A DNA stretch of 64,000 nt from Gemmatirosa kalamazoonensis. GTDB lineage: Bacteria > Gemmatimonadota > Gemmatimonadetes > Gemmatimonadales > Gemmatimonadaceae. Positions within the stretch are counted from its first letter, which is position 1. Every line of letters begins with the position of its first letter. Shown here piece after piece: positions 8,236 through 33,921 of the stretch. The position numbers and the translations under genes are program-made. The notes below the pieces were generated by a model that saw only the letters and a program-made list of their open reading frames with translations, had not been told where the DNA came from and ran no database searches. The DNA lies in NCBI RefSeq assembly GCF_000522985.1, contig NZ_CP007128.1, positions 1,410,220 to 1,474,219 of the forward strand, given 5' to 3'.

Positions 8236-9237
8236 TCAAGCTCGCCGCTGCACCGTCGCCGTCACAAGGTCCGCCAGCATGCCGTACGCGGTCGTCGTCG
8301 GGTCGGGGTCGTGCGACGTCACGGTGAGCCCGCCGGGGAAGACCTCGGCGTCGTAGTGCATCACCAGCGTCGCGCCGCGCACGACGCCGAGCGGGTCGCT
8401 GGCGCCTAACGGCGTGGGGGCGACGCCGGCGCGCAGTCGTCCCGCGTCGTCGCGCGCGACCTCGCCGACCAGGCGCAGCGGCCGTCCCTCGTCGCGCGCA
8501 CGGCGCACGTCGCGCGGATCGAGCGCGCCGATGCCCTCGCGCGCGACGTCGCTCGGGCGCAGGTCGCCGCCCATCAGCACGTTCGCCACCGCGCACAGCT
8601 TCACCGCCGAGTCCCACCCGTCCACGTCGTAGCGCGGGTCCGACTCGGCGATGCCTAACGCCTGCGCGCGCGCCACGCCCTCGGCCACCGACAGCCCGTC
8701 CTCCACCGCCTCGAGCACGACGGTCGCCGTCGACGTGAACACGCCGCGCACGCCGCGCAGCCCGGCGAGCGGCAGGCAGTCGCGCACGAGCGAGAAGACC
8801 GGCGCGCCGTCCATCACCGCGGCCTCGAACAGGTAGCGGCGGCCGGCCGCGCGCGCGAGCGCGTCGAGCTCGCGCCACCCGTGCACCACCGGTCCCTTGT
8901 TCGCCGAGACCGCGTGCGCCCCGGCGCGCAGCGACGCGCGCAGGTAGGCGAGCGCCGGCTGCCCGGCGTGCGGGTCGAGCGCGATCGCCTCGAGCACCAC
9001 GTCGGGCCGCGCCGCGTGCAGCCACGCGTCCACGTCGCCGAGGTCCGCACCGTGCGGCGCGTCCGGGTCCAGCCCGCCCGGGTCTGCCCGCCAGCCCATG
9101 CGCCGCGATGCGACGCCCGTGACGACCCACTCGATCCCGTAGTCGCGCGCGAGCGCCTCGCGGCGGCGCAGCAGCAGCGCGTGCAGCGCGCGGTTGACGG
9201 CGCCGAATCCGAGGAACGCGAGGCGGGTGGGAGGCAT
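8236..9237 (-). CDS. Homoserine dehydrogenase-like oxidoreductase
   Basis: 333 residues. Rossmann motif LGFGAVNRALHALL at about 8-21; SANKGPVV near 112-119 matches the homoserine dehydrogenase (T/S)ANK-x-x-V element with the catalytic Lys; DPRYDVDGWDSAVKLC matches the conserved D-x-x-G-x-D-x-x-x-K segment. There is no C-terminal ACT domain, so it would not be regulated by threonine through that route. The family (hom, PF00742) converts aspartate semialdehyde to homoserine; a catabolic paralogue is possible because no other threonine or methionine genes are nearby. Confidence 0.8.
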   Translation of the reverse strand: MPPTRLAFLGFGAVNRALHALLLRRREALARDYGIEWVVTGVASRRMGWRADPGGLDPDAPHGADLGDVDAWLHAARPDVVLEAIALDPHAGQPALAYLRASLRAGAHAVSANKGPVVHGWRELDALARAAGRRYLFEAAVMDGAPVFSLVRDCLPLAGLRGVRGVFTSTATVVLEAVEDGLSVAEGVARAQALGIAESDPRYDVDGWDSAVKLCAVANVLMGGDLRPSDVAREGIGALDPRDVRRARDEGRPLRLVGEVARDDAGRLRAGVAPTPLGASDPLGVVRGATLVMHYDAEVFPGGLTVTSHDPDPTTTAYGMLADLVTATVQRRA

Positions 9238-9273
9238 CGGCCGTCTCGTGTCGTTTTCGCCGTTCTCGATCGC

Positions 9274-29736: not shown

Positions 29737-30886
29737 GGCGCCTCCCGAAGCGCATCGGCCAGCGCGTCGAGCAGCGCACGCTGCACCGGCTCCGGCCCGA
29801 CCGCGAGGCGCAGCGCGTCGCCGCCGCTCGCCGCGAGCGCGGGCACCACGCGCGGCAGCCCGCGGAACACCCGCGCGCCGACACCGCGCGCGCGCAGCCG
29901 CGCCGCGACCGCCGCGGCGTCGCGCACCGGCACGAACGTGAAGTTCGCGACCGACGGCGACGGCGACAGCCCCAACGCGCGGAGCCCCGCCTGCAGTCGC
30001 TCGCGCTGCGCCACCGCCTCCGCGGCGCGCGCGCGCGCACCCACGGCAGCCCGGCGTCCAGCGCGGCGAGCGCCGCCTTCTCCGCGGGGTACGTCACCTT
30101 GAACGGGCCGCGCGCCTTCTCCACCTCGCGCACGACCGCCGCGTCGCCCACGCCGTAGCCGACGCGCAATCCAGCGAGCCCGAACGCCTTGCTCATCGTG
30201 CGCAGCACGAGCACCCGCTCCCACCCCGGCGCTTCGGGCGTGAACACCTCGGCGCGCGCGGCCGGATCGGCGAGCACGAACTCGGCGTACGCCTCGTCGA
30301 GGATGACGAGGCCGCGCGCACGCTCCACCACGCGCCGCACCGCGTCGCGCGCGACCGGCGTCGCGGTCGGGTTGTTCGGCGAGCAGAGGTAGATGATGCA
30401 CGCGTCGGTCGCGAGCAGCGCGTCGGCGTCCACCGCGTAGTCGTCGCCGGCGAGCGGCACGCCCACCGGCGTGAGGCCGTTCGCGCGGGCGTACACCGGC
30501 ACCATCGAGAACGTCGGCGCGGCATGCGCGAGCACGCCGTTCGGCTGCGCGAACGCGCGCACCGCGCAATCGAGCACGTCGTCCGACCCGCACCCGGTGA
30601 CGATCTCCTCGGGACGCACGCCCGCATACTCCGCGAGCGGCGCCTTCAGCTCGGCGTTGTACAGGGCGGGGTAGTGCGCCACCGTCGCGGTGAGCGCGGC
30701 CGCGCGCAGCGCGTCGAGCGCCGCCGGTGGCGCGCCCCACAGGTTCACCGTGTCGCTCACGTCGACGGCGCACGGCGACGTGCCGGGCGCGTAGAGAGGG
30801 ATCTGCTCGTAGCCGGGGCGTGTCGGTAACCCACCCTGAGCGTGGAGCGTGGAGCGTGGAGCGTCGAGTGTCGCCTTGTCCATCAT
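29733..30886 (-). pseudogene. hisC: Histidinol-phosphate aminotransferase, frameshifted
   Basis: Class II PLP aminotransferase of the his pathway. The ATG at 30884-30886 overlaps the hisD stop. Residues ~4-17 (KATLDAPRSTLHA) come from a GAGCGTG array; the conserved part starts at YEQIPLYAPG and includes CSPNNPTA and the PLP Lys in RTMSKAFGLAGLRVGYG. At the GC-dinucleotide run 30024-30040 the frame breaks: LPWVRARA in one frame must join AAEAVAQRERLQAGLRA in another, which continues to the stop at 29733 with a normal C terminus. Loss of one GC dinucleotide explains it. It may be a sequencing error, a true mutation or slippage; without HisC the strain would need another aminotransferase. Confidence 0.85.
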
Positions 30887-32460: not shown

Positions 32461-33347
32461 GGCATCAGCCTCTCGATGCGCGTCACCAAGATCCCCTCGC
32501 CGCCGAGGGCCTTCAGTTGGGCGATGGTGCGGTAGATCGTCGCCGCGGCGACCACCGCGTGCACCGCCACGTGCGTGCCGCCGTTCATGATGTCGATCAC
32601 GGTGGGGCCCGAGATGCCGGGGAGCACCTCCTTCACGCGGTCGAGCGCCGCGCGCGGCACGTTCGCCATCACGTACCGGCGGTCGCGCGCGCGGAGCACC
32701 GACGCGAGCGCCGCGACCAGCTCGTCGAGCGCGCGCGCCTTGTCGCTCGCCGTCTCGCCCGCGGCGGGCATCGTGCCCGGCGTCGCGATGAGCCGCGCGC
32801 TCGACTCGAGCACCGTCGCGACCTCGCGCAGCCCGTTCACCTTCAGCGTCGAGCCGGTCGACGTGAGGTCGACGATGACGTCGGCGATGCCGAGGTGCGG
32901 GGCGATCTCCACCGCGCCGGAGATCGGTACGACCGTCGCCTCGCGTCCGAGCGACGCGAAGAAGCGCGTCGTCACGCGCGGGAACACCGTCGCCACGCGC
33001 ACCGCCCGCCCGTCGTGCACGCCGAGGTCGTCGGCCGTGTGCACCGCACTGTCCTCGCGCGCCGCGACGACGATGCGGCAGCGGCCGAAGCCGAGGTCGA
33101 GCAGCGCGTCGAGCGGCCGCTCGCTCTCGCACACGAGGTCCCACCCCGTGACGCCGGCGTCCGCCGCGCCGTCGGCGACGAACTCGGGGATGTCGGCGGC
33201 GCGCACGAAGATGGCCTCGAACTCGCCGCCGAGCGACGCGGTGAGCGCGCGGTCGCCGCGGACGCGTACCTCGAGCCCGGCGTCGTTGAACAGCTCGCGG
33301 GCGTCGTCGGCGAGGCGCCCTTTGTTAGGCAGTGCGATGCGTAGCAT
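32457..33347 (-). CDS. hisG: ATP phosphoribosyltransferase, long form
   Basis: 296 residues, the long (HisG_L) type with a C-terminal ACT-like regulatory domain, so no HisZ partner is needed. First committed step of histidine synthesis. Landmarks: MLRIALPNKGRL, the PRPP-binding DVIVDLTSTGSTLKVNGL, and the C-terminal domain VMANVPRAALDRVKEVLPGISGPTVIDI with VAVHAVVAAATI, where histidine feedback inhibition acts in characterised long-form enzymes. An attenuator with leader peptide lies immediately upstream. Confidence 0.95.
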   Translation of the reverse strand: MLRIALPNKGRLADDARELFNDAGLEVRVRGDRALTASLGGEFEAIFVRAADIPEFVADGAADAGVTGWDLVCESERPLDALLDLGFGRCRIVVAAREDSAVHTADDLGVHDGRAVRVATVFPRVTTRFFASLGREATVVPISGAVEIAPHLGIADVIVDLTSTGSTLKVNGLREVATVLESSARLIATPGTMPAAGETASDKARALDELVAALASVLRARDRRYVMANVPRAALDRVKEVLPGISGPTVIDIMNGGTHVAVHAVVAAATIYRTIAQLKALGGEGILVTRIERLMP

Positions 33348-33353
33348 GGATCA

Positions 33354-33391
33354 CGAAAAACGAAAAAGCCCGCCGATGGAGATCGGCGGGC
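33354..33391 (-). terminator. Intrinsic terminator of the his attenuator
   Basis: On the minus strand: 10-bp perfect stem (33382-33391 with 33368-33377, arms GCCCGCCGAT and ATCGGCGGGC), loop CTCC, followed by TTTTTCGTTTTT. It lies only 7 bp before the hisG start codon, a place where a terminator only makes sense as a regulated one. It is the only T-tailed intrinsic terminator I found in the window. Confidence 0.9.
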
Positions 33392-33467
33392 CGCTGCGAA
33401 CGAGCTCGGACGCTCGGGTGACTCGTCGTCGGTCACCCACGCGCACGCGCGTCGCCGCGGCCCGCCG
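33384..33467 (-). promoter_or_regulatory. Antiterminator pairing region of the his attenuator
   Basis: On the minus-strand RNA, CGGCGGGCCGC (from 33467-33457, right after the His codons) is the exact reverse complement of GCGGCCCGCCG (33394-33384), whose 3' part is the 5' arm of the terminator. The two pairings are mutually exclusive. Between them, GGGTGAC/GTCACCC (33415-33421 with 33432-33438) can form a separate small hairpin close to the leader stop codon, possibly a pause hairpin. Confidence 0.8.
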
Positions 33468-33531
33468 GGCCGTGACGATGATGCACGTGATGATGGTGGT
33501 GCGCGCGGACGATCGACATGGCTCGCAACAT
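33433..33531 (-). CDS. hisL: his operon leader peptide
   Basis: A 32-codon frame from ATG at 33529-33531 (or 28 codons from ATG at 33517-33519) to TGA at 33433-33435. Codons 11-20 read HHHHHVHHRH: eight histidines in ten codons. It is the first reading frame upstream of hisG, about 85 bp before it, and is followed by the antiterminator and terminator. His starvation would stall the ribosome on these codons, free the antiterminator strand and permit transcription into hisG. The Shine-Dalgarno sequence is weak for both starts. Too short and unusual to be found by similarity. Confidence 0.88.
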   Translation of the reverse strand: MLRAMSIVRAHHHHHVHHRHGPAGRGDARARG

Positions 33532-33627: not shown

Positions 33628-33921
33628 ATGAACAAGTCGGAGCTCATCCAGTACGTCGCCGACGAGGCCGAGCTGTCGCGCGTGAAGGCCGCCTCGATCG
33701 TGAACCTCCTGTTCGATCCCACGAGCGGCGTCATCGCGAAGAGCATCAAGAAGGGCGAGGTCGTCACGCTCACCGGCTTCGGCACGTTCGAGCAGCGCAA
33801 GCGCGGCGCGCGGACGTTCCGCAACCCCCAGACCGGCGCCCCCGTGAAGGCGAAGGCGAGCAAGGTGCCCGCGTTCCGGGCCGGCGCGACGCTGAAGGGG
33901 ACCGTCAAGGGCGGCAAGTGA
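33628..33921 (+). CDS. hup: HU-family DNA-binding protein
   Basis: 97 residues: MNKSELIQYVADEAELSRVKAASIVNLLFD helix pair, GEVVTLTGFGTFEQRKR beta arm start, RTFRNPQTGAPVKAKASKVPAFRAGATLK with the conserved R-N-P-x-T at the DNA-intercalating tip. Nucleoid-associated dimer that bends DNA. It is transcribed divergently from the his operon and followed by a structured gap before the cupredoxin gene. Confidence 0.95.
   Translation: MNKSELIQYVADEAELSRVKAASIVNLLFDPTSGVIAKSIKKGEVVTLTGFGTFEQRKRGARTFRNPQTGAPVKAKASKVPAFRAGATLKGTVKGGK

Follow-up and report, generated by a model that had tools for sequence, protein, structure and literature searches.

Attenuation of the histidine operon through the leader peptide gene hisL is the textbook case of the gamma-proteobacteria. 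The locus described here lies ahead of hisG in a 64-kb stretch of DNA from a soil-dwelling member of the Gemmatimonadota (the window, by which we mean the whole stretch analysed). It resembles hisL of Escherichia coli and Salmonella in its run of His codons, in its mutually exclusive antiterminator and terminator and in its site before hisG. The sequence itself is unrelated: scanning of the window against Rfam at strict and permissive settings gave no match at gathering score, no his leader at E-values up to 10, and no T-box or riboswitch. Two further differences are that hisL is led by a Shine-Dalgarno sequence whereas the leader here is apparently leaderless, and that the antiterminator strand (region 2) falls here within the codons of a conserved GPTGRG motif.

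Predictions of attenuators with a histidine leader also exist for Firmicutes (PMC9413887) and for the regions before hisS and hisZ in bacilli (PMC2965389). As described in the accessible text of these papers, they likewise place a His-rich peptide, a terminator and an antiterminator before his genes; they belong to other phyla, and that text reports no leaderless layout. Attenuation of this kind has long been known, and leaderless examples have been described elsewhere. The transcript of Sinorhizobium meliloti trpL has its 5' end at the leader ATG and undergoes transcription attenuation (PMC7298713); it is leaderless like the element here, and differs in concerning tryptophan in an alphaproteobacterium. 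The ilvBNC attenuator of Corynebacterium glutamicum, with three hairpins and a discussed leaderless translation initiation (PMC11857589), differs in concerning branched-chain amino acids in the Actinobacteria. In mycobacteria, short leaderless poly-cysteine ORFs are described as sensing the amino acid (Canestrari 2020, as cited in PMC13236596), and these share the leaderless leader ORF with cysteine as the amino acid; no conserved terminator hairpins were found for the Mycobacterium cys leaders (PMC1262725). What appears to be new, among the open-licence literature, is a candidate leaderless histidine attenuator that is conserved throughout a class and occurs in myxobacteria too. An earlier note on this DNA had been aware of no his attenuation in Gemmatimonadota, and this agrees with our search of open-licence papers, among which none joined attenuation, leader peptide, histidine and Gemmatimonadota.

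Organization of the region ahead of hisG

The intergenic region is 280 nt long and separates hisG (33347–32457, minus strand) from a divergent HU-family gene (33628–33921, plus strand), the latter named from its sequence. The operon opens with hisG, which has its ATG at 33347 and scored above the curated NCBIfam cut-off of TIGR00070. The remainder of the operon, hisD, hisC, hisH, hisA and hisB, extends on the minus strand from about 32290 (approximate start) to 27760. The products of hisD and hisH exceeded their NCBIfam cut-offs (TIGR00069 and TIGR01855), the hisA (TIGR00007) and hisB models scored slightly under theirs, and hisC was assigned by reading of frames, being spread over two of them. 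The hisC frames break at a GCGCGCGCGC run (about 30,020–30,060 of the window, minus strand), an apparent frameshift that may be a sequencing slip or real.

All parts of the putative attenuator are on the minus strand. The leader peptide ORF (MSIVRAHHHHHVHHRHGPAGRGDARARG; 33519–33433) has 28 codons and a stop, and includes the regulatory His codons (33501–33472), read directly as HHHHHVHHRH; 8 of these 10 codons specify His, a tandem array of cognate codons, predicted to be translated, directly before the operon. Just past the His run, within the leader codons for a P-A-G-R motif, lies region 2 (CGGCGGGCCGC; 33467–33457), the 5' strand of the antiterminator and the exact 11-nt complement of region 3 (GCGGCCCGCCG; 33394–33384), which is common to the antiterminator and the 5' arm of the terminator. 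The duplex of regions 2 and 3 has an energy of −34.4 kcal/mol. Constrained folding also gave a hairpin 1:2 (TCGTC-A-CGGCCC/GGGCCG-C-GGCGA; 33478–33452), which would occlude region 2 as long as no ribosome is held upstream, and an internal hairpin (GGGTGAC...GTCACCC; 33438–33416), which holds the leader stop codon, is nested in the antiterminator fold. Between the leader and hisG is an intrinsic terminator (33392–33367) of −21.1 kcal/mol, GGCCCGCCGAT-CTCC-ATCGGCGGGCT, with 11 pairs of which 8 are G-C. Its T-tracts, TTTTT CG TTTTT (33367–33356), occupy 33367–33363 and 33360–33356, and hisG starts 8 nt beyond the second of them. On direct reading all coordinates that the earlier note had given for the His codons, the 11-nt pairing and the terminator were correct. 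Its remark that this is the only T-tailed terminator in the window holds roughly, as one other hairpin (9217–9250, plus strand), with a poor tail (TCGTTTTCGC), passes the threshold used.

In the six frames of the window, a density of at least 6 His in 10 codons occurs at a single place, which is the leader, and none of 30 random windows matched to it in base composition reached 7 His in 10 codons. Across the 7.5-Mb genome an H3-x-H2 pattern gave 6 matches compared with 3 for the reversed control pattern. Because such matches arise by chance elsewhere in the genome, the His run alone is weak evidence, and it is the combination of parts that carries the case. The other genomic matches that were read proved to lie in long G+C-rich frames with no T-run nearby and were rejected as leaders. 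The fold of the 184-nt leader was better than those of 199 of 200 dinucleotide shuffles (z −3.06).

Leader, terminator and promoter in relatives

HisG was present in 272 of the 395 Gemmatimonadota genomes searched, and the comparison set consisted of the 157 hisG loci with at least 250 nt of upstream sequence. A leader was called when a short frame with at least 4 His among 12 codons lay no more than about 300 nt ahead of hisG, and 127 of these 157 loci had one. By family (numbered f1 to f11), leaders were called in 83 of 85 loci of f1, the family of the window, 5/5 of f4, 25/28 of f5, 5/5 of f7 and 1/1 of f8; the corresponding counts were 8/20 for f2, 0/1 for f3, 0/6 for f6, 0/1 for f9 and 0/5 for f11, which is in another class. 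As a control, a His-rich frame at a similar threshold was present in only 2 of 87 sequences of 500 nt before other amino-acid genes. Among the loci without a called leader, two proved on reading to have one that falls just short of the threshold (HHYTHTSH in L039 and HHHGH in L160), and in L031 the leader is decayed (YHHR). In most of the f2 and f6 loci without a called leader, and in the f3 locus, another open frame ends 5–14 nt before hisG, and hisG is therefore not the first gene there. In f2 and f6, genomes whose HisG is divergent (40–49% identical) mostly have no leader and carry hisG directly 3' of another open frame, possibly hisZ. Judged from sequence, his attenuation would be near-universal in this group, which is distant and has been little studied, and myxobacteria would share it.

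Between leader and hisG, 122 of the 127 leader loci have a T-tailed hairpin stronger than −10 kcal/mol. Among the 32 loci in which no leader was called, 5 have such a hairpin; two of these are truncated contigs and three resemble weaker leaders. These G+C-rich hairpins with long T-tracts often stand 40–120 nt before hisG and therefore suit transcription termination rather than sequestration of the hisG start, which makes it quite improbable that stalling acts instead by altering how accessible the hisG start or Rho sites are. The scarcity of a Shine-Dalgarno signal before hisG (25/127 loci) and the existence of actinobacterial Cys leaders without terminators (PMC1262725) are in keeping with such control through translation or Rho.

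The peptide itself is conserved in relatives, including the GPTGRG that follows the His run, as might be expected if the leader encoded a small His-rich protein with a function of its own, such as metal binding, and the hairpin were an ordinary terminator of that gene. The conserved GPTGRG codons are, though, the antiterminator strand, the peptide differs where the terminator differs, and the frame is mostly absent where another gene precedes hisG in the operon; taken with these observations, a small protein of this kind is highly improbable.

Aligning the relatives on the leader ATG exposed promoter elements, whereas a scan of the window alone with the sigma-70 consensus had given no promoter. 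A TAnnnT motif 5–12 nt before the leader ATG was present in 94 of 127 loci and in 6% of shuffles. The two-element promoter TTGAC-N16-18-TAnnnT, ending 5–10 nt before the leader ATG, was present in 85 of 127 loci and in a fraction of 0.0002 (0.02%) of shuffles, with a spacer of 17 in 71 of the 85; the same two-element test applied before hisG itself gave 0/127. In the window the −10-like TATGTT (33532–33527, minus strand) is clear and stands 7 nt ahead of the leader ATG. The −35-like TTCCGC (33555–33550, minus strand), 17 nt ahead of the −10, is weak, being a poor match to TTGACA; the nearest relatives, L033 and L034, have TTCCxx at equal spacing, and most other relatives have TTGAC.

A Shine-Dalgarno-like motif preceded the leader in just 9 of 127 loci, and a TAnnnT about 12 bp upstream of the start codon has been described as a sign of leaderless genes in bacteria (PMC3160421). 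The leader looks leaderless because TTGAC-N17-TAnnnT stands just before its ATG in most relatives and Shine-Dalgarno motifs are almost absent; the arrangement expected of a leaderless attenuator, a −10 ending about 6–7 nt before the leader start and no Shine-Dalgarno sequence, agrees with this, TTGAC-N16-18-TAnnnT being present in 85 of the 127 relatives. We infer that transcription starts at or within a few nt of the leader ATG (33519), and translation of the leader most probably begins at the extreme 5' end of the mRNA. The earlier note had described a 32-codon frame of hisL type. The ATG at 33531 is indeed in frame, and together with the poor −35 of the window it would suit a leader that was Shine-Dalgarno-led from 33531 with its promoter further upstream. 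We consider this unlikely: the promoter elements of the relatives end 5–10 nt ahead of the 28-codon start, few loci have a Shine-Dalgarno-like motif, and 33519 is the likelier start because 33531 falls inside the predicted −10. The attenuation part of the earlier description is kept, with a leader that is probably of 28 codons and leaderless, unlike that of E. coli hisL. Such a form would need no Shine-Dalgarno sequence and would leave no untranslated leader.

In a close relative, G244 (locus L267; HisG 82% identical), neither a leader nor a terminator is present before hisG, and a promoter-like segment resembling that of the window (TTTCGCAAGGGCG... CATCTTGCGGGC) abuts the hisG ATG. The whole attenuator appears to have been deleted in this genome. 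Natural variants are at hand, including this relative that apparently lacks the leader through loss.

Antiterminator pairing and predicted mechanism

The segment of the leader after the His codons pairs better with the terminator 5' arm of its own genome than with those of others (−24.7 within genomes compared with −22.5 between genomes), and 0 of 20000 permutations were as good. When one sequence was taken per genus, the energy difference in favour of the own arm was −2.4 kcal/mol across 27 genera of f1 and −2.9 when all 68 groups were included, with a genus-level permutation p of median 0 and maximum 0.002. The terminator stem itself showed compensatory changes (GG/CC, GA/TC and AG/CT). A triple co-variation count of dinucleotides in the terminator 5' arm, the 3' arm and region 2 was not clean, region 2 often being G-U paired, and we relied on the duplex-energy permutation test for this reason. 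Exact matches of at least 7 nt between region 2 and the terminator occurred in 36% of genomes and in 12% of shuffles.

The complementarity of region 2 and terminator is partly a by-product of G+C richness, as G+C-rich DNA forms stems easily and mono-shuffled region 2 still yields duplexes of −20 kcal/mol. A chance resemblance of the whole is nevertheless scarcely credible, being excluded by the conservation over genera and families, the co-variation and the promoter.

Constrained folding gave the two structures as mutually exclusive and dependent on the position of the ribosome. With a ribosome placed at the His codons, the terminator 5' arm paired mostly with region 2 in 117 of 121 genomes; moving the ribosome to the stop codon lowered this number to 63 of 121, pairing dropping by at least 0.3 in 54 genomes and rising in none. 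In the window, stalling at His gave the antiterminator until the terminator 3' arm appeared, and a ribosome at the stop codon gave the 1:2 hairpin and the terminator. The unconstrained pre-terminator transcript of the window, with no ribosome, favoured antiterminator over terminator, a point against the model. Region 2 ends 24 nt before the leader stop codon in the window, which is also the median over genomes; a ribosome at the stop codon therefore leaves the core of region 2 uncovered, and the 1:2 hairpin must sequester it. This reliance on hairpin 1:2 departs from the textbook layout.

The sequence and its comparison with relatives show that all the parts are present, are conserved and co-vary, and they give the direction in which the fold switches. 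In the light of this the hisG-D-C-H-A-B operon is very probably controlled by ribosome-mediated transcription attenuation, with charged tRNA-His as the signal that is sensed. This supports the reading of his attenuation made in the earlier note: relatives that might have lacked His-rich frames or the alternative stems have the frame in 127 of 157 loci and the terminator in 122 of 127, and the pairing is stronger within genomes than between them.

For the operation of the switch, we infer the transcription start, the leaderless initiation and the response to histidine as follows. RNA polymerase would start at or beside the leader ATG and the first ribosome would load on the leaderless 5' AUG. 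When His-tRNA is short, the ribosome would stall at the His codons, hairpin 1:2 would be blocked and region 2 left free; region 2 (33467–33457) could then pair with region 3 (33394–33384) before the terminator 3' arm is made, allowing read-through into hisG. When His-tRNA is plentiful, the ribosome would continue to the stop codon, region 2 would be masked, or refolded as 1:2 behind the ribosome, and the terminator (33392–33367 and its T-tracts) would form and stop transcription. With leaderless initiation in an attenuator, 70S loading on the nascent 5' AUG would become part of the timing of the switch.

Myxobacterial and leuA counterparts

Besides Gemmatimonadota, a HisG scan of named genomes returned three Eisenbacteria MAGs and members of the Myxococcaceae/Archangiaceae with 67–71% identity; the labels of some records (Kuenenia, Comamonas) appear wrong for their HisG. 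A His-rich leader, mostly of the type HHHHAHHR, was present in all myxobacterial loci (L279–L341), including that of Myxococcus xanthus, and a strong terminator, mostly of the GGCCCGTC type, was present in all of them except L324, in which the best hairpin was −5.2 kcal/mol. A few nt ahead of its leader ATG, M. xanthus carries TTGACG-N17-TACTCA. When HisG was placed in a quickly built tree, the myxobacterial sequences grouped within the Gemmatimonadaceae branch, and support for this was moderate (86 and 82–87). Transfer of the his operon across phyla together with its attenuator is a likely explanation. As M. xanthus, a laboratory organism, carries the same kind of element, the attenuator should be directly testable there.

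A candidate counterpart was found upstream of leuA, near 257,400 of contig C3, in the genome of the window (L254; about 257,254–257,430, minus strand). Here TTGACC-N17-CAAACT-N7-ATG leads to a leader peptide of the Leu/Ile/Val type, MQRHAVLLLTSALGRLIGRGLSCLGGRSE, and to a terminator, GGCCCCTCCC...GGGAGGGGCC, of −31 kcal/mol; GGGAGG, which encodes LGG in the leader, can pair with CCTCCC. The element looks like a leaderless attenuator of the Leu/Ile/Val type, and similar leuA-type leaders were found in G025 and G015. Upstream regions of trpE gave no convincing Trp leader.

The his element makes a well-supported regulatory RNA for the amino-acid genes of Gemmatimonadota, for which we found no earlier report in open-licence papers. 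We lean slightly towards a wider reading, in which leaderless leader-peptide attenuation would be the standard control of amino-acid operons in the class Gemmatimonadetes (his where hisG is first, with a leu/ilv counterpart), the his attenuator having moved with its operon into Myxococcaceae and possibly Eisenbacteria. If this is true, one complete and leaderless RNA switch functions in more than one phylum.

Leaders of branched-chain type, with terminators, were also seen in G328, G008 and G336. In the genome of the window, leuA and an ilvB are on a separate 1.1-Mb contig (C3; 1,106,233 bases), and his and trpE are on the 5.3-Mb contig.
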